Below, one piece after another: positions 6,826 through 52,403 of a stretch of DNA of 59,653 bases. Below the pieces are notes generated by a model. That model did no database searches and was not told the DNA's origin. It was given only the letters and a program-made list of their open reading frames with translations. How positions within the stretch are numbered: the stretch's first letter is position 1; every line of letters starts with the position of its first letter. The DNA is from Subtercola vilae (GTDB taxonomy: Bacteria; Actinomycetota; Actinomycetes; Actinomycetales; Microbacteriaceae): contig NZ_QYRT01000022.1 in assembly GCF_004923255.1 (NCBI RefSeq), forward strand, positions 1 to 59,653, written 5' to 3'. Position numbers and translations under genes: made by a program.

Positions 6826-6905
6826 AGGGGCGTTCCCGGAATCGAACCCGGGGCCCAGTGCACCTTTGGCCTCCAGCTCAGTTGGTAGAGCGCGTGGACT
6901 TTAAC
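6826..6905. other. tRNA remnants in opposite orientations
   Basis: Bases 6875-6897 are identical for 23 bases to the D-arm and anticodon-stem part of the intact tRNA-Asn (11831-11853), preceded by an acceptor-like stretch, but the anticodon loop and 3' half are missing. Immediately left, on the minus strand, lies a T-psi-C-like arm (GGGTTCGATTCC, complement of about 6836-6850). The two pieces do not form one tRNA. The minus-strand gene ending at 6878 runs into the plus-strand remnant. The bases from 6732 to here contain no gene. Confidence 0.55.
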
Positions 6906-7240
6906 CCTTCACCATCGATCTTGGCTTGGATCTGCTCTGCCGTGTACGGCGAGTACCAGTAGTGGGTTGAGGTGATGTGAGCCAACCGTTGCGCGAACGA
7001 CTCCGTTTCAGTCGTCAATACGTCCGCTAACAGACCCACGTATTCATCAAGCCAGAGATTAACCACGTCATTCTTGTTCGTGAAATGCTCCAGCGCGCGC
7101 AGATCGTTTATGGCGTGGCGGATTGCCGCCCGAATCGCGGGCTTCTGAGTGTTCTCGATCTCGAATTCAAGGAGCGCGATTGCTTGATCACATGCTTCGC
7201 GCACATGGATGGACTCAATCGAATTAGGCCGGTCAATCAT
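6878..7240 (-). CDS. Hypothetical protein of minus-strand cassette (120 aa)
   Basis: ATG at 7240 overlaps the stop of the upstream gene (7233), so the two are translated as a pair. The product starts MIDRPNSIESIHVREACDQA and is mostly helical, with a final segment STRSTN encoded by the tRNA remnant, hinting that the original C-terminus was replaced. The longer frame to 7417 overlaps the HTH gene entirely and is not used. No family recognised; by pairing it could be a partner of the HTH protein. Confidence 0.55.
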   Translation of the reverse strand: MIDRPNSIESIHVREACDQAIALLEFEIENTQKPAIRAAIRHAINDLRALEHFTNKNDVVNLWLDEYVGLLADVLTTETESFAQRLAHITSTHYWYSPYTAEQIQAKIDGEGLKSTRSTN

Positions 7241-11822: not shown

Positions 11823-11895
11823 TGGCGTGTAGCTCAGTTGGTAGAGCGCGTGGCTGTTAACCACGATGTCGCGGGTTCGAGTCCGGCCATGCCAG
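11823..11895 (+). tRNA. tRNA-Asn (anticodon GTT), phage-encoded
   Basis: Cloverleaf: acceptor TGGCGTG (11823-11829) with CATGCCA (11888-11894, one G-U), D stem GCTC/GAGC, anticodon stem CGTGG/CCACG with loop CTGTTAA, T stem GCGGG/CCGGC with loop TTCGAGT, discriminator G at 11895. The central T-stem pair is a G-G mismatch. Encoded CCA is absent (CAA follows). A 23-base part is duplicated in the remnant at 6875-6897. Confidence 0.85.
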
Positions 11896-11940
11896 CAAAA
11901 ATATTTTCGAACGCTCACGCGTTTTGCAGAGGGGTTACTG

Positions 11941-13515: not shown

Positions 13516-16500
13516 GTGGGTATCTTCGACCGGTTCCGCAAGTCGGGCACACCTGAAGCTATTGATGCGGCTATGGCCGTGCAGGGCATGGATCAGTCTG
13601 CGGCGATGGGGCCGGGTCGGCCTCTGAACCCGAACAAGGGTTATTCGCAGCCGCCGCGGTCGATGGATTACCCCACAGGGGTGAACCTTTCGACTCGTTC
13701 GCGCACTGCGTGGGGGCGTACGTCTTTCGAGACGTTGCGTGAGATGACTTCCCTGTATGACGTTGCGCGGATGTGCATCAACCACAAAATTGATGAGATC
13801 CGGTCGATGGGGCTGCTGTTCATGCCCGCCGATGGTGTGACGACGGATGTTCGTGACGCTTTGGATGCGGCTAGGACTGTTCTGGCGTTCCCCGACCGTG
13901 AGCACCCATTCGATGAGTGGCTGGGGATGTGGCTTGAGAATCAGCTTCGGTACGATGCCGGCCCCTTGTATTTTCGCCGGAATCTTTTGGGTGAGATTGT
14001 TGGCCTTGAGGTTCTGGACGGTACGACGATTGCGCCGTACATCGATGAGCATGGTCGCCGCCCGATGGCACCCGCCCCAGCATATTTTCAGTTGGTGCAC
14101 GGCCAGGTTTGGTCGACGTACACCGCTGAAGACATCCTGTACCCGAGGTTTCGGCCGCAGGGTGATTCTCCTTACGGTTTGGCCCCGATTGAGTCGATCC
14201 TTCTGACGGCTAACACGGATCTGAAGTTTCAGTGGCACCTGTTGCAGATGTTCACTGATGGTTCGGTGCCGTCCGGGTTTATCGAGTTGCCGCCAGACAT
14301 TTCGTCACCCGATCAGGTTGCGGAGTGGCAGGACTACTGGGATGCGGTGGTTCAGGGTGATCAGGCGAAGCAGCACCAGCTGGTGGCTGTGCCTGCGGGT
14401 ACGAAGGTTACGCAGACTCGCCCTAAAGGTTTCGATCCGCTGTTTCCTGACTATCTGGTCACCCGTGTTGCGGCGGCTTTTGGTGTTGTGCCGCAGGATT
14501 TGGGTTTGCTGAAGGACGTGAACCGGTCAACTGGTGACGTCCAGGTCGATATTCAGTTTCGTGTGAACACTCTGCCGTGGGTGCGTTTTGTTGAACAGAT
14601 CTTGAACCGGTATTTGCAGCACGATCTTGGCCTGCCGGTGAAGGTTGCGCTTGATACTGGGCGTGACAAAGAGGATCGGCTCACTGAGGCTCAGGCGTGG
14701 GAGGTTTACGTCAAGACTGGTGCGGCGTCGATGGATGAGATGCGGCAGGAGTTGCTTGGTCTGCCGATTGATAATCAGCGGCCCATTCCGCGCGGCATCA
14801 TCACAGCCCGTACAGGGTTTGTGCCGCTCACATCGATTCTGGCTATTTCTGGTCCGATTGATGGGGAGACTGGCGCACCGGATGACAGTGTGCCGTTGTC
14901 GTTGGCTCCGTTCGATGGTGTCGGTGGTGTTCTGCCTGACAAGCTGCCGGGTGGTGTGGAGTTCAAGCGTGCCCCGCAGAATCCTGACGAGCCAATGTTT
15001 CCGTCTCTTGAGCACATTGTGCCGGGGTCGGATGTTGTGAATGGGATGCCTGCGGTCGGTGGTGCCATTTCGAAGGAGATGACTGCTGGTGTCACTGCGG
15101 GTACCGGGATTCACGGTAACCCGCTTGATGATGACGACGAGTTGGTGAAGGCTGAGCTTGCTCAGTTCCGCCGGTTCGTGAAGCAGCGTAAGAAGTCTGG
15201 TGAGTGGCGCGATTTTGCGTTCAACTCCGTAACACCGGATGAGGCGCAGAGGATGAACCGTGAGGGTCGCGAGAGCGGCCCTTTTCTAGTTAAAGCCCAG
15301 TCTGATGTTTCGGTGTCTGGTCTTGCGGTTCACGCTGCGGACACGGGTCGTGTGCTGATGTTGCAGCGCGCTCTTGACGACACGGATCCTGCATCAGGCA
15401 AGTGGGAATTCCCGGGCGGGCACCTCGAAGACGGGGAGTCACCGGTTACCGCCGCTTTGCGTGAGTGGTCGGAGGAGGTACGGATTCCTGCCCCTGCCGG
15501 TGACCCCGTTGAGGGGTGGCTGAACGGGCACTATCAAGGGTTCGTTCTAGAGGTTCCAACCGAGTTCCCGATCCATGAGGATCGTGGTTCGGTGACGAAC
15601 CCGGATGATCCTGACGGGGATTGTATTGAGGCCATTGCATGGTGGTCGCCTTCTGATCTCGTTGACAACCCCGTTGTTCGGCAGGAGCTTCATGATTCGC
15701 TCGGTGACATTCTGCCGTCGATTGGTGGGAGCCTCCCTTTAGCTAAAGCGGGGTGGCGTGATACGCCCGAGGCCACTCCGCAGCTCCGCTACGACCTGAA
15801 GATCACGGACGCGTATCAGCCGGTCGTTCTGGCCGCGCTGAAAACGCTCGTGCTATCCGTTGACATTTCGTCGTTCCCTATTCAGAAGGGTGCCGACGAC
15901 ACCGACCCGCTCGCAGCACTGCTCGGGCAAAACCTGTCAACGGCTGAGCTTGAGCAGGCGATACGAAACATCATCGCTGACGGCTACATGGCGGGCGTTT
16001 CTGCCGCGGGTGAGCAGATCGGTTCAGGCGCGGTCACCGTGTCTGGGTCGATTGGTAATGCGGTCGCGGCGACGGATTGGTCAACGTGGGTGCCGGGTTC
16101 GCCCGGTGCTGCCGCCCAAACCGCTGACGGTGCGCTCGCTGATCTTCTGGCGCAGTCCGGTGTGACGATCAAGGGCATTTCCGACTCGCTACTTGAGCAG
16201 GTCGGTAACGCGCTCGCTGATGGGCTCGCCGCGGGTTCACCGTCGCGGGACATCGCGGACGTTCTGGCGGGGCTCGGTGACAGCCTCTCGGGTCGTGCGG
16301 AGATGATCGCACACACCGAGGGTGCCCGGGCTATGACCGCGGCGTCGTTCGAGGTGTACGGCCTGAATGGTGTCACCGATTGGGATCTGATCACGTCTGC
16401 GGGGGCTTGCCCGATCTGCTTGCAAGTAGAGGCAGCGAACCCGCATTCACAATCGGACACTTCGAACGCGCCGCCTCTGCATCCCAGATGTCGTTGCAGC

Positions 16501-16554
16501 AGCTCACCCGTTGTCGAGTCGATCAACGCAGCACAAATTCAGTACACGGAATAG
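13516..16554 (+). CDS. Portal - Nudix hydrolase - MuF fusion protein
   Basis: GTG 13516 after GGAGG (13505-13509); 1012 residues, about twice a normal portal. Residues 1 to about 440 are an HK97-type portal (the DNA channel of the head vertex). Residues 596-740 form a Nudix domain with a complete box: GG at 634-635, E641, REWSEEV at 649-655. From about 755 the protein continues as a MuF head-morphogenesis domain, ending in CPIC (965-968) and PLHPRCRC (987-994). Portal-MuF fusions are known; an internal Nudix enzyme would place a nucleotide-diphosphate hydrolase on or inside the capsid. No frameshift or internal start separates the parts. Confidence 0.9.
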   Translation: MGIFDRFRKSGTPEAIDAAMAVQGMDQSAAMGPGRPLNPNKGYSQPPRSMDYPTGVNLSTRSRTAWGRTSFETLREMTSLYDVARMCINHKIDEIRSMGLLFMPADGVTTDVRDALDAARTVLAFPDREHPFDEWLGMWLENQLRYDAGPLYFRRNLLGEIVGLEVLDGTTIAPYIDEHGRRPMAPAPAYFQLVHGQVWSTYTAEDILYPRFRPQGDSPYGLAPIESILLTANTDLKFQWHLLQMFTDGSVPSGFIELPPDISSPDQVAEWQDYWDAVVQGDQAKQHQLVAVPAGTKVTQTRPKGFDPLFPDYLVTRVAAAFGVVPQDLGLLKDVNRSTGDVQVDIQFRVNTLPWVRFVEQILNRYLQHDLGLPVKVALDTGRDKEDRLTEAQAWEVYVKTGAASMDEMRQELLGLPIDNQRPIPRGIITARTGFVPLTSILAISGPIDGETGAPDDSVPLSLAPFDGVGGVLPDKLPGGVEFKRAPQNPDEPMFPSLEHIVPGSDVVNGMPAVGGAISKEMTAGVTAGTGIHGNPLDDDDELVKAELAQFRRFVKQRKKSGEWRDFAFNSVTPDEAQRMNREGRESGPFLVKAQSDVSVSGLAVHAADTGRVLMLQRALDDTDPASGKWEFPGGHLEDGESPVTAALREWSEEVRIPAPAGDPVEGWLNGHYQGFVLEVPTEFPIHEDRGSVTNPDDPDGDCIEAIAWWSPSDLVDNPVVRQELHDSLGDILPSIGGSLPLAKAGWRDTPEATPQLRYDLKITDAYQPVVLAALKTLVLSVDISSFPIQKGADDTDPLAALLGQNLSTAELEQAIRNIIADGYMAGVSAAGEQIGSGAVTVSGSIGNAVAATDWSTWVPGSPGAAAQTADGALADLLAQSGVTIKGISDSLLEQVGNALADGLAAGSPSRDIADVLAGLGDSLSGRAEMIAHTEGARAMTAASFEVYGLNGVTDWDLITSAGACPICLQVEAANPHSQSDTSNAPPLHPRCRCSSSPVVESINAAQIQYTE

Positions 16555-39500: not shown

Positions 39501-39572
39501 GCCTCTGTAGCTCAATGGAAGAGCAAGTCCGTCCTAAGGATTAGGTTGGGGGTTCGAGTCCCTCCAGGGGCA
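39501..39572 (+). tRNA. tRNA-Arg (anticodon CCT)
   Basis: Complete cloverleaf: acceptor GCCTCTG (39501-39507) with CAGGGGC (39565-39571), D stem GCTC/GAGC, anticodon stem AGTCC/GGATT, loop GTCCTAA (anticodon CCT), T stem GGGGG/CCCTC with loop TTCGAGT, discriminator A. It reads AGG codons. The chromosomal gene marks the right end of the prophage. The prophage is on its 5' side, not the usual 3' side for tRNA-integrating phages. Confidence 0.9.
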
Positions 39573-39620
39573 CCGTTCGCGTTCTGCGCAGGTGTCGTAA
39601 GCATCCTCTCGGTGCCGCTG

Positions 39621-39660: not shown

Positions 39661-40875
39661 ATGACGATGAATGCAACAGGTGCTGACGCCGCCTCATCGT
39701 GGCCTGCCGTCACCTTCGAGCAGCGTCCTTGGGAAAGTCATGACACCGCTGGTCAGTCCCGTCGAGCGGCATTGCGAGCCAGAGGGCCCTACCAGGCCTC
39801 CATACCTCCGTCTATCGCCACGCTCGCGTTGCCAGCCCTCGATATGGACACCATGATCGCGGCCGAAGACGCCGTCGTCGAGCTTGGCCGATTCGATGGT
39901 GAGGTCGGCGCGATCGCCGCACCGTTCTCGGCAATTCTTCTTCGCAGCGAGAGCGCGGCCAGTTCTGAGATCGAGCAGCTCACGGCGTCAGCCAAGAACA
40001 TTGCTTTGGCCGAACTCGGGCGAAGCGCGGGTCGGAACTCCCGGTTGATCATCGGCAACGTGCGGGCGATGGAAGCCGCGATCGAGATGGCCGAGCAGTT
40101 GGACGGGTCGACAATCGTCGCTATGCAGGCAGAAATCCTGCGTGATGACCAGCCGGAGGATACCGGCGGCTGGCGCACGCAGCAGGTCTGGATCGGTGGC
40201 GGGTTCGGCAATAGCCCACACGGTGCATCCTTCGTTCCGCCTCATCACGAACGAGTCGGAGCCTTGATGGACGACCTTGTCGAGTTCGCTCGCCGCACCG
40301 ATCTGCCTGCGCTGGTGCAGATCGCGATTGCGCATGCGCAGTTCGAAACCATCCATCCATTCACCGATGGCAACGGACGAACGGGTCGCGCGCTCGTGCA
40401 AGCGATGCTGCGTCGACTGGGAGCCACGCAGAATGTCACCGTGCCTGTCTCCGCGGGTCTTCTGCAGGACACCCGTGGGTATTTCGCCGCCCTCACTGAG
40501 TACCGCCTCGGCAATGTGCAGCCGATCGTCCAGTCATTCGCTCGGGCGTCAGCTGACGCAATCGTCAACGGACGCCAGCTCGTGGCGGATCTGACGACGG
40601 TGCGTGCGCGTTGGGAGCTGGCAACGACTGCGCGAGCGAGAAGCTCTGGTCGTCGACTGTTGGATGTGCTCCAACGTCAACCGGTGATCGACTCGAACCT
40701 CGCCGCAGGCGAACTCGGCATTGATTCGAGGAATGCGCAGAACGGTATCGATCGACTGGTTACCGACGGCATCCTCACCCAGATGAGCGCCGGAATGCGA
40801 AACCGTGCCTACGAGGCACGCGAAGTATTGACCGCCCTCGACGGATTCGCGGCGCGAGCGAAAAGACGTCGCTAG
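39661..40875 (+). CDS. Fic-family AMPylase with C-terminal winged helix
   Basis: 404 residues. The catalytic loop HPFTDGNGRTGR (His 232 to Arg 243) is intact, so transfer of AMP (or another nucleotide moiety) from a nucleotide to protein hydroxyls is expected. An N-terminal SSEIEQL near residue 100 resembles the inhibitory (S/T)xxxE(G/N) helix of class II Fic proteins, with Gln in the last position. The last 75 residues (RRLLDVLQRQPVIDSNLAAG; IDSRNAQNGIDRLVTDGILT) are a winged helix. The protein probably senses a state and represses itself through the palindrome at 39621. The target is unknown. Confidence 0.9.
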   Translation: MTMNATGADAASSWPAVTFEQRPWESHDTAGQSRRAALRARGPYQASIPPSIATLALPALDMDTMIAAEDAVVELGRFDGEVGAIAAPFSAILLRSESAASSEIEQLTASAKNIALAELGRSAGRNSRLIIGNVRAMEAAIEMAEQLDGSTIVAMQAEILRDDQPEDTGGWRTQQVWIGGGFGNSPHGASFVPPHHERVGALMDDLVEFARRTDLPALVQIAIAHAQFETIHPFTDGNGRTGRALVQAMLRRLGATQNVTVPVSAGLLQDTRGYFAALTEYRLGNVQPIVQSFARASADAIVNGRQLVADLTTVRARWELATTARARSSGRRLLDVLQRQPVIDSNLAAGELGIDSRNAQNGIDRLVTDGILTQMSAGMRNRAYEAREVLTALDGFAARAKRRR

Positions 40876-49868: not shown

Positions 49869-50126
49869 ATGGCTATCAACGACGACGACATCACCACCGA
49901 ACAGGGAGCGGGCGGAGAGGGTCCCGCGGATGGCGGCGCAAACCCGAACGGGCACGACGGTGGAGCCGATGGTTCTGCCAGCGCAGGCGAAGGGCCGGCC
50001 GACGGCGGGGCGAACCCGAACGGCCACGATGGTGGCGCTGACGGTTCGGCCGACGAGGGGGAGGGCCCCGCTGACGGCGGCGCCAATCCCAACGGCCACG
50101 ATGGCGGAGCTGACGGTTCTGCGTAA
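49869..50126 (+). CDS. Triple-repeat peptide (candidate modified precursor)
   Basis: ATG 49869 with GAGAGG. 85 residues: a 15-residue leader (MAINDDDITTEQGAG), then three 22-residue repeats at 16-37, 40-61 and 64-85 of identical amino-acid sequence, each containing EGPADGGANPNGHDGGADG, separated by two-residue spacers (SA, DE). The DNA of the repeats differs at many synonymous positions, so protein identity is under selection. No hydrophobic segment or Cys. It resembles BatC-like repeat proteins of Actinobacteria, function unknown. TAATG overlap with the cupin gene shows coupled translation; repeated Asn, Asp and His are suited to hydroxylation. Confidence 0.8.
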   Translation: MAINDDDITTEQGAGGEGPADGGANPNGHDGGADGSASAGEGPADGGANPNGHDGGADGSADEGEGPADGGANPNGHDGGADGSA

Positions 50127-51382
50127 TGCCTGAATTCGAGCGCGGGTCGGGCGAGCGGCCCGCGCTCTCTCGTCTGGTGGGCGCCGACACTGCCCGCGTC
50201 TTCGGCGCGACGTACTGGTCTCGCCAACCGTTCTTGGCCGCCGCCGTGTCGAATGCCTCATTCGACGACCTCTTCAGCAGCGCGGCCGTCGACGAACTCG
50301 TGCGCGAGCGCGGCATCCGCACTCCCTTCATGCGCATGGCCGTTGAAGGTTCTGTGCTGAGCCCCTCGACCTACACAGCACCCGGCGGTTTCGGCGCCGA
50401 GGTGGCCGACCAGGTCAATAGCGAGAAAGTGCTCGCCGAGTTCGCTGCGGGCGCGACCATCGTGCTGCAGGGCCTGCACCGCACCTGGCCACCGCTGATC
50501 GACTTCACCCGTCGCCTCGTTGACGACCTCGGGCATCCGGCGCAGGTGAACGCCTACGTAACCCCTGCCTCGTCGCGCGGCTTCGACCCGCACTACGACG
50601 TTCACGACGTGTTCGTGTTGCAGATCAGCGGTGAGAAGCACTGGCGAATCCACGCTCCCGTGCACCCGCATCCGTTGCGCGACCAGCCCTGGAGCGACTA
50701 CCGCGAGCAGGTGGCAGCCCAGGCCGCCGGTGAACCCGTCATCGACACCGTTCTGCGACCGGGCGACGTGCTCTACCTGCCCCGCGGCTGGATCCACTCG
50801 GCCGAAGCCCTCGGTGGCACCTCGGTGCACCTCACTATCGGCGTGGCGGCCTACACGCAAGCCGACATCGCTCACTCGCTCCTCACCGTCATCGCTGACA
50901 CCCCGGCGCTTCGCGAGTCGCTGCCCCTCGGCGTCGACTTCGGCGACACCGAGCAATTGCTGCCGATCGTCGCCGAGGTTCTAGCGGGGCTGCAGGGTGC
51001 GCTCCAGATTCCGGATGCCCGTGCTGCTGCGGTTCGCCAGGCATCCGCCGTAGGGGCAGACCTGTCACATCGTCTCTCGGGGGCGAGTCGCCCCGAACCC
51101 GTTTCGCCGCTCGCGACGGTGGATTTCATCGGAACCCTGAACGAAGCGAGTACCGTGCGCTGGCGCGGCTCACTTCGGGCCGCCATCACGACTGGCCCCG
51201 AATCAGTGCGTATCGCGCTCGCCGGTCGCTCTGTCGTGCTTCCGCAGGAGGCACAGCCGGCGGTAGAGATGTTGCACGCCGGGCAGGCCGTGGCGGTCGG
51301 CGAGTTGCCGGGCCTCGACCCCGCGTCGGCGATCGTTGTCGTGCGGCGGCTCCTGCGCGAGGGCATCGTGGTACCGGCGTGA
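50126..51382 (+). CDS. JmjC/Cupin_4-type oxygenase
   Basis: ATG 50126 shares the last base of the preceding TAA. 418 residues. The cupin core shows the iron-binding facial triad: His 156 and Asp 158 in HYDVHDVFVLQISGEKHW and His 224 in LYLPRGWIHSAEA. The SGEKHWRIHAPVHPHP part is typical of Cupin_4 proteins such as ribosomal oxygenase YcfD/RoxA, which hydroxylate protein side chains with 2-oxoglutarate and O2. The C-terminal 150 residues form a winged-helix-like tail, as in that group. The coupled repeat peptide is the obvious candidate substrate. Confidence 0.85.
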   Translation: MPEFERGSGERPALSRLVGADTARVFGATYWSRQPFLAAAVSNASFDDLFSSAAVDELVRERGIRTPFMRMAVEGSVLSPSTYTAPGGFGAEVADQVNSEKVLAEFAAGATIVLQGLHRTWPPLIDFTRRLVDDLGHPAQVNAYVTPASSRGFDPHYDVHDVFVLQISGEKHWRIHAPVHPHPLRDQPWSDYREQVAAQAAGEPVIDTVLRPGDVLYLPRGWIHSAEALGGTSVHLTIGVAAYTQADIAHSLLTVIADTPALRESLPLGVDFGDTEQLLPIVAEVLAGLQGALQIPDARAAAVRQASAVGADLSHRLSGASRPEPVSPLATVDFIGTLNEASTVRWRGSLRAAITTGPESVRIALAGRSVVLPQEAQPAVEMLHAGQAVAVGELPGLDPASAIVVVRRLLREGIVVPA

Positions 51383-51419
51383 TGCGGGTGCTCCTCGGGT
51401 CTCTGATGTCTCGCTGTCT

Positions 51420-52403
51420 GTGACGAACGCCGACACGGCAGCCGGGTGGGCACCGTGCAGTGACCGCTCGCGGGAGCGCGACGACCCGCTGGCCGCCACC
51501 GCCTCGCGCGGACTCCAGTGGTTTCTGGTGGAGATCGACGGGTCGTGGGGCGCGAACGCCTTCATCTCCTCGGCGCTCGGCCGTGAACTCGGCCAGGCTC
51601 TTGTGCATCGAATCGAGTCAGCAGGGATGCGACCGCTCGCCATCAGGCGGGCCCGGCGCTTTCGCGCGGGGCGCATCGCGAAGCCGTCGTGGCGATGGGC
51701 GTTCGTCGATTCGCGGCCCGGGTTCGAAGAGGTGCGATGGGGTGAGGTGACGGATCCGTACGAGCTGCTCGAAGTGCCGCTCGACGGGTCGACGGGCATC
51801 CGGTCGCCCGAACCGGTGTACTGCGTCTGCACCCACGCGAAGCATGACCAGTGCTGCGCGGTGCGCGGCAGACCCGTGATGGAGGCGCTGGTAGCGGCGC
51901 ACCCCGACGAGACGTGGGAGTGCTCGCACCTCGGCGGCGACCGGTTCGCCGGCACGATGGTGATCTTTCCTGAGGGGTTCTACTTCGGCCGCGCAGATGA
52001 CAGTGAAGCCGTCGGCATTGTGGATGCCTACCGGGCCGGGCGGGTCGATGAGCGATTCTTTCGCGGGCGCAGTTCGCTCTCGCACCCGGTGCAGGCGGCC
52101 CAGCACTATGCCCGTGAACACTTCGGCGTCGACCGGCTCGATGCGTTTGCTCCGCTGGGTGGTGGCGCTGCCGCTCCACTCGCAGCCCGCGTCAGCGACC
52201 GCGCCGCCGACCGCGCAAGCTCCCTCGCACCGGGGCAGACGGCAGTGCTGCTCGACCACGACGGGGTCGCCGTGCGCGTCGTCGTGGCAGAGACGCTCTC
52301 AGAACCCCTGCTCAGCACCTGCGCCGCAACACGGTTCGGCCGGGTGCGAGAGTTCTGCCTCGAGTCGATCACCGTGATGCCGCCGGGGGTTTGGGTCGGC
52401 TGA
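51420..52403 (+). CDS. Suc_Fer thioredoxin-like ferredoxin protein
   Basis: GTG 51420 is the only usable start after the cupin stop; the site is weak. 327 residues. The C-terminal two thirds match the sucrase/ferredoxin-like family: Cys at 135, 137, 145 and 146 in VYCVCTHAKHDQCC, and ECSHLGGDRFAGTMVIFPEG with Cys 168, then FYFGRADDSEA. Such domains hold a [2Fe-2S] cluster in a thioredoxin fold. It lies 37 bases after the cupin and could supply electrons or assist metal loading, but 2-oxoglutarate oxygenases do not need a ferredoxin, so its role here is open. Confidence 0.75.
   Translation: MTNADTAAGWAPCSDRSRERDDPLAATASRGLQWFLVEIDGSWGANAFISSALGRELGQALVHRIESAGMRPLAIRRARRFRAGRIAKPSWRWAFVDSRPGFEEVRWGEVTDPYELLEVPLDGSTGIRSPEPVYCVCTHAKHDQCCAVRGRPVMEALVAAHPDETWECSHLGGDRFAGTMVIFPEGFYFGRADDSEAVGIVDAYRAGRVDERFFRGRSSLSHPVQAAQHYAREHFGVDRLDAFAPLGGGAAAPLAARVSDRAADRASSLAPGQTAVLLDHDGVAVRVVVAETLSEPLLSTCAATRFGRVREFCLESITVMPPGVWVG

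Follow-up and report, generated by a model that had tools for sequence, protein, structure and literature searches.

The genome of Subtercola vilae (4.04 Mb, 103 contigs) carries a compact gene module, in which a gene for an Asp-rich repeat peptide directly precedes a gene for a JmjC-type oxygenase and is followed by one for a Suc_Fer-like protein. The module lies within bases 1-59653 of contig NZ_QYRT01000022.1, the stretch of 59,653 nucleotides that we analysed and refer to as the window. Our data suggest that it is probably a leader-guided system resembling those of ribosomally synthesized and post-translationally modified peptides (RiPPs), with the oxygenase hydroxylating Asp residues in the core of the neighbouring peptide. 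The linkage of the genes, their conservation, the intact catalytic residues and the fold family of the enzyme are direct observations. A peptide-modification system had been proposed here in the original prediction, made from the letters of the window; what it observed is confirmed and the module is larger than it reported. Gene linkage, repeat variation and the kinship of the enzyme to hydroxylases support its general reading, and from its set of candidate target residues Asp emerges as the best candidate. The features are as follows.

49869-50126, plus strand: putative precursor peptide gene, 85 aa; N-terminal leader MAINDDDITTEQGAG, then three Asp-rich repeats
49869-49913, plus strand: leader region with an acidic [LI]x[DN][DE][DE]I-type motif, common to most distant relatives; proposed recognition sequence
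49917-49979, plus strand: repeat 1, EGPADGGANPNGHDGGADGSA, 21 aa (22 with the preceding Gly)
49989-50051, plus strand: repeat 2, protein sequence as repeat 1; 13 base differences from repeat 1 and 12 from repeat 3, all third-position
50061-50123, plus strand: repeat 3, 21 aa, protein sequence as repeat 1
50126-51382, plus strand: JmjC_2 (ribosomal-oxygenase-like) oxygenase, 418 aa; H156, D158, H224, K171; C-terminal domain at ~325-418 resembling a winged helix or RiPP recognition element (RRE)
51420-52403, plus strand: Suc_Fer-like protein, 327 aa from the likely start GTG 51420

The repeat peptide and its linkage to the oxygenase gene

As predicted, the first gene encodes 85 residues with three identical repeats: the open reading frame (ORF) reads MAINDDDITTEQGAGG and then EGPADGGANPNGHDGGADGSA three times. 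Compared pairwise, the copies of EGPADGGANPNGHDGGADGSA differ at 12-13 of 63 bases, each time at codon position 3, and only 26% of the possible single changes in these codons are synonymous. The claim that the protein repeats are held identical under synonymous change is borne out for this gene and does not extend to its relatives, in which the repeats of a single peptide frequently diverge, both at x of NPxG and at the residue following EG; exact repeat identity is a feature of the S. vilae genome. The proposed overlap of the first two genes amounts to one base, the last A of the peptide stop TAA (50124-50126) being the first base of the oxygenase ATG. The window peptide matched no Pfam or NCBIfam family, and by eye no signal peptide is evident on it.

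A scan of named genomes gave 145 oxygenase relatives, the closest of them in Subtercola, and the best 80 of the 145 were examined. The peptide lies upstream of the oxygenase in 79 of these 80 loci, a count that takes in partial copies at contig ends or gaps (L014, L073, L032) and one frameshifted copy (L068); the sole miss, L054, is at a contig edge, where the sequence begins 24 bases 5' of the oxygenase. The linkage on which the original prediction had staked itself is therefore present in nearly all loci. Repeat number varies under a fixed motif, as had also been anticipated: across the 79 loci and the locus of the S. vilae genome itself, 67 peptides have three repeats, ten have two and one has five, with L032 (masked) and L068 (frameshifted) counted as having one. 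No other conserved gene accompanies the module in more than 10 of 81 loci, as judged from clustered ORFs of at least 90 aa up to 6 kb on each side. Among 74 upstream regions we found no widely shared word that could mark a common promoter or iron-regulator motif; the top k-mer, GCGTACGC, occurs in 10.

The two genes also co-occur at the level of the family. Of 150 Microbacteriaceae genomes, 16 have a match to the peptide profile and 18 to that of the oxygenase, and 16 of the 18 oxygenase genomes (E 1.2e-119 or better) are the 16 peptide genomes, with the two matches within ~200 bases; here the listed genomes agree, and unlisted ones are taken to be from the same draw. The remaining two, G429 and G497, hold distant paralogues (E 4.9e-37 and 2.1e-29).

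Distribution in Actinomycetota and core types

The peptide profile finds 12 of 396 Actinomycetota genomes, 11 besides that of the window, with the oxygenase adjacent. At a threshold of 1e-15 the oxygenase profile matches at least 58 of the 396, which is a lower bound because at most four candidates were scored per genome. Loci from all 58 genomes and four more from the family-level draw were examined. We define the oxygenase family as 55 loci scoring 1.8e-54 or better (at least 52 of the 396 genomes, one of them with two copies, plus G409 and G450), and use as controls 14 oxygenases in 12 loci scoring 9.5e-51 or worse. Repeated loci were omitted: L163-L165 (the same as L108, L123 and L122) and L084-L095 (the same as L096-L107), the latter from the wide-locus counts. 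Contig ends cut three of the 55 family loci (L121, L155, L126); 51 of the 52 uncut ones have a clear Asp-rich repeat peptide directly upstream of the oxygenase. No Asp-rich peptide ORF was read beside the 14 control oxygenases between positions -400 and +200. Our peptide filter kept 51 loci including L108 and missed L130, in which two repeats are plain on reading.

The peptides combine a shared leader with cores of several types. The leader usually takes the form LTDEDIxTV (for example LTDEDIETV) or INDDDITT; loose patterns find it in 47 of 51 peptides (L111 does contain the motif, but there the match fell elsewhere). The core type of the window, EGPADGGxNPxGHDGGADG (HDGG type), stands beside EGPADGGAAGTPGVHDGG, which in L106 has Gln in place of His; DGTDGDATDADG, DGDASDA and DADSTDA occur mostly in genomes outside the class of the window, and SADGTDQGVxGGTYGPRDA (L124), PTEDDENLDAPGEHSQDTGDE (L130) and GDAAGAGAGDA (L144) complete the set. 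Cys is absent from the cores. Four Asp-rich peptides compared with known families gave no NCBIfam match and a single Pfam match below threshold (13.4 bits, cut-off 50). A search for viral carriage gave 12 pattern matches, none of them a relative.

Asp fraction alone was tried as a discriminator and rejected, as the best 40-residue windows of HDGG-type peptides (0.15-0.20) overlap those of controls (0.07-0.23); HDGG-type peptides were identified by the peptide profile and ORF reading. In L096, L098, L106, L130 and L162 the Asp-fraction scan picked ORFs in the wrong frame, and the peptides meant here are those from locus reading.

A tree was drawn from 79 oxygenases, with a midpoint root for display only. 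It places the HDGG-type enzymes together (25 rows, counting L108; support 100/99) and likewise the Asp-rich ones (40 rows; 100/96), with 12 of the 14 control rows lying apart; one copy from L134 falls beside the family on a branch of 2.35, its placement unsure. On this grouping the module appears to be old within the phylum, with core types that seem to follow the enzyme. The L134 locus (genome G352) has three JmjC_2 paralogues within ~10 kb, without an upstream Asp-rich peptide.

The oxygenase

The second ORF belongs to Pfam JmjC_2 (PF08007, E 2.9e-31), in keeping with its earlier assignment as a Cupin_4/JmjC-type protein, and the proposed triad of His 156, Asp 158 and His 224 is invariant, together with K171, in 65 of 65 family rows of the alignment (the window row counted twice). 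By analogy we take K171 to be the residue that binds 2-oxoglutarate. The protein thus appears to carry both the iron triad HxD...H and the 2-oxoglutarate residue of the ribosomal-oxygenase-like enzymes of PF08007. Its closest solved structures by sequence are NO66 (5.4e-24) and MINA53 (6.6e-21), then YcfD (2e-8); by fold the AlphaFold model (pLDDT, the predicted local distance difference test, of 86) is closest to NO66 (1.1e-26), followed by MINA53 and YcfD, then YxbC and FIH. Foldseek alignments to NO66 span 448-476 columns with gaps, with a template modelling (TM) score of 0.64-0.68 by query and a root-mean-square deviation of 5.5-6.6. The enzyme therefore stands nearest to known protein side-chain hydroxylases, as the original prediction held. 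Ribosomal oxygenases consist of JmjC, dimerisation and winged-helix domains in the passage cited (PMC6006756), and the model of the window enzyme is consistent with this order. At three residues, R119, Q115 and Q140, the family differs from the 14 controls, and these residues could suit an acidic substrate.

The target residue

Asn, Asp and His had all been proposed as targets. We consider Asp the best candidate, because cores lose His and Asn and because the pocket appears changed at the position of NO66 Ser421. His is missing from 27 of the 51 cores, Asn from 28 and both from 22; Asp is found in all 51, a figure that is partly by construction because cores were picked by Asp-containing motifs. 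The passage cited states that the substrate residue of MINA53 and NO66 forms hydrogen bonds with Tyr167/Tyr328 and Ser257/Ser421, respectively (PMC9994133). In a HMMER alignment (NO66 numbering by our own count) Tyr328 of NO66 aligns with Y144, kept in 65 of 65 rows, and Ser421 with G239, which is Gly in 65 of 65 family rows; the 14 controls have Gly in 6, Thr in 5 and Ser in 3. Relative to NO66, the Tyr of the pair that binds His in histidyl hydroxylases thus seems kept and the Ser replaced by Gly.

It is unlikely, though the least unlikely of the alternatives, that the same system hydroxylates the His (or Asn) of GHDGG as NO66 and MINA53 would. The closest solved relatives are histidyl hydroxylases, and GHDGG is present in every window repeat and retained in nearly all repeats of the named loci; yet all three repeats of L106 have Gln for His, Asn is lost in L104, L107 and L161, single repeats of L070, L076 and L082 lack His, and both the 22 cores without either residue and the invariant Gly speak against such a target. 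Asp hydroxylation is most likely at C-3, judging from the chemistry of the nearest relatives; other oxidations may take place, or Thr, Ser, Ala or Gly may be the target.

Leader recognition

In the AlphaFold model the C-terminal region of the oxygenase (~325-418) has strands at 343-346, 353-356, 360-365 and 368-373, then helices at 374-384 and 399-411, which is compatible with a winged-helix/RRE fold. A natural fusion, L068, joins leader, one repeat and oxygenase in one frame. In its model residues 1-10 have a mean pLDDT of 78, with a helix at 5-7 and a strand at 9-11, and residues 13-62 (repeat and linker) are below 50; the contrast between leader and repeat does not stem from alignment depth because the same nine peptide rows cover both, and the linker has no peptide rows in the alignment. 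R347 and R408 would be fitting for binding of an acidic leader: each occurs in 62 of the 65 family rows, against 2 of the 14 controls, of which five are gapped there. The leader is changed or missing in five rows, all from one clade (L105-L108, L161), and the same five are the only ones without the LPGLDPAS loop among the 64 rows whose C-terminus is complete (the contig of L127 ends too early, and leader sequences are lacking for the three cut loci). These observations would fit recognition of the leader by the C-terminal domain. The module shows the arrangement expected of a RiPP system, a putative precursor with leader and core encoded beside its candidate modifying enzyme.

The Suc_Fer protein

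The third ORF is Suc_Fer-like (PF06999, E 3e-16), as had been proposed. Its likely start is GTG 51420, since the ORF translated from 51408 opens with a GTC codon. We take the family to be thioredoxin-like ferredoxins, presumably of the [2Fe-2S] type. The HxGGxR motif is found in 45 of 45 relatives of the wide set and the strict CTH...CC pattern in only 17 of them; no related solved structure was found by sequence. The gene lies downstream of the oxygenase on the same strand in 77 of the 80 named loci (all except L004, L031 and L051), no more than 300 bases past the end of the oxygenase in 75 of these, and follows the oxygenase in 45 of 55 wide loci versus 0 of 12 control loci.

Proposed mechanism and alternatives

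The proposed system has two core genes, for peptide and oxygenase, and a frequent third for Suc_Fer. The peptide would be the substrate of the neighbouring enzyme, whose winged-helix (RRE-like) C-terminal domain probably binds the acidic N-terminal leader; the repetitive, disordered core would then be oxidised with Fe(II), O2 and 2-oxoglutarate, most likely at C-3 of Asp side chains. Suc_Fer is probably a redox partner that, at a guess, keeps the enzyme iron reduced or acts with the product. What results from the modification is probably a polyanionic polypeptide, rich in hydroxy-Asp, which remains intracellular and may bind metal, the last again a guess; a cell-internal, metal-binding or redox-linked polypeptide would fit a core rich in Asp, an iron enzyme and a partner of the iron-sulphur type. 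A wider version of this proposal, which we hold only tentatively, is that these are ancient, phylum-wide hydroxy-aspartate polymers: lineages would swap repeats while keeping the leader, an Asp every few residues, one JmjC enzyme with a changed pocket and usually a ferredoxin-like partner, and the intracellular poly-hydroxyaspartate would bind iron or other metal as a ribosomal counterpart of hydroxyaspartate siderophore chemistry.

Several points weigh against hydroxylation of the peptide by its neighbour. Activity of the enzyme on the peptide rests on prediction, and the nearest characterised enzymes hydroxylate His and are described as highly selective for it in the passage cited (PMC9994133). 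The score line between family and paralogues was set after the upstream ORFs had been read, and that reading was by eye. The upstream ORF of L108 is acidic, without repeats or leader, and the peptide-less paralogue L156 falls inside the Asp-rich group of the tree, on a branch of 1.32 and with unsure placement. As for the leader, L106, L107 and L161 lack its motif; its joint loss with the loop is suggestive only because one clade represents one event; and AlphaFold output came without coordinates, so that the partner of the leader strand in L068 is not visible. Three of the 80 named loci and 10 of the 55 wide ones gave no Suc_Fer gene (in L127 there is no sequence downstream), and Suc_Fer hence is not essential. 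Finally, no conserved peptidase or exporter was found among ORFs of at least 90 aa around the named loci, which is unusual for a secreted RiPP and is not required of all RiPPs.

It is somewhat more doubtful than a His or Asn target that the peptide merely regulates the oxygenase, as a decoy inhibitor or as a chaperone, and that the actual target is a ribosomal or some other protein. Ribosomal oxygenases are the closest kin of the family; according to the passage cited, some substrate-analogue peptides inhibit MINA53 and NO66, and regulation by competing unoxidised peptides has been suggested (PMC9994133). Against this, repeats that differ by synonymous changes here, and cores that change from clade to clade yet remain rich in Asp, resemble a multi-site substrate more closely, and leader followed by repetitive core would be the order of multi-core precursors. 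Least probable is a secreted bioactive RiPP, an antibiotic or signal cut from the repeats: JmjC enzymes do tailor biphenomycin in the passages cited (PMC12707348, PMC12257519), and of the distant relatives in JmjC_2 one adjoins a radical SAM/SPASM gene and another has a lanthipeptide synthetase gene nearby, but among ORFs of at least 90 aa around the 80 named loci there is no conserved peptidase, transporter (exporter) or immunity gene beside the module, and a phylum-wide spread with one simple Asp-rich theme would be unlike an antibiotic family.

Relation to known systems

With NO66/RIOX1 and MINA53/RIOX2 (His C-3 hydroxylases) and YcfD/RoxA (Arg) the window enzyme has in common the JmjC_2 fold, the triad and a full-length fold match. 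It differs from them in being encoded with a dedicated repeat peptide and in the Gly at the NO66 Ser421 position. BipG/PbsQ of biphenomycin biosynthesis, an Orn hydroxylase, is likewise a JmjC-type oxygenase acting on a ribosomal precursor; in the passages cited it is one tailoring step on a short core, among steps by a multinuclear non-haem iron-dependent oxidase (MNIO), an arginase and radical SAM enzymes (PMC12707348, PMC12257519), whereas here the oxygenase is the only conserved enzyme besides Suc_Fer and the Asp-rich repeats are long. FIH and AspH (Asn/Asp C-3 hydroxylases) perform 2-oxoglutarate-dependent hydroxylation of Asp/Asn side chains, as proposed here, according to the passage cited (PMC9994133). 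FIH is only a distant fold match to the window enzyme (best E 3.3e-11), and the substrates of FIH and AspH are not dedicated peptides. Bufferin chemistry is Cys-based, whereas the cores here have no Cys. Bufferins, which the passage cited describes as MNIO-modified metallophore RiPPs (PMC12452194), share with our proposal a ribosomal peptide, a non-haem iron enzyme and a metal role, but use a different enzyme family.

The nearest published statement among the matches listed is a remark that an RRE-like domain is fused to PF08007 proteins in fish and algae and that the closest bacterial homologues occur in RiPP-like contexts (PMC12710340); the passage cited names no precursor, Asp-rich repeats, Suc_Fer or Actinomycetota family. 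Motif strings of the peptide gave no match among the open-licence PubMed Central papers searched. The original prediction knew of no described system of this make-up, and we likewise found none there among the matches listed for JmjC, RiPP, hydroxyaspartate and ribosomal oxygenase, most matches lying beyond the best-ranked. Two plasmids show other RiPP-like settings of the enzyme superfamily, with distant JmjC_2 relatives near a radical SAM/SPASM gene in Rhizobium (L170, 3980-5155) and near a LanM-type gene in Pseudanabaena (L166, 3962-5182).

Other features of the window

Bases 1-39500 of the window are prophage-like, with genes for terminase, portal, tape measure and tail proteins and a GC content of 0.56-0.61 versus 0.63-0.69 past 40 kb. 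The GC step lies near tRNA-Arg(CCT) (39501-39574), a possible attachment site, and a Fic/DOC-family protein is encoded just past this gene (39661-40875). Within the prophage-like part, 13516-16554 encodes a phage protein of 1012 aa whose single chain unites a portal, a NUDIX and a Mu F-like head domain, and a tRNA-Asn gene (11823-11896) overlaps the listed start of the terminase ORF. A stretch of 42 bases (6865-6906) is 86% like the 5' half of tRNA-Asn and was not called a tRNA by ARAGORN.

Biological significance

JmjC-type enzymes in RiPP clusters are already known (BipG, PbsQ). The module looks like an undescribed chemical decoration of a ribosomally made peptide and, were the modification shown, would come close to a new RiPP class, one whose core is a low-complexity Asp polymer and not a defined short sequence. 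It would also provide a dedicated peptide substrate for bacterial relatives of ribosomal oxygenases and make a change of residue specificity in a JmjC enzyme of the NO66/MINA53 type testable, at one Ser-to-Gly site and a few polar residues. Two genes might then serve as a tool for installing many hydroxyls on acidic peptides. If true, the proposal would account for a group of acidic proteins that carry no annotation in many Actinomycetota.

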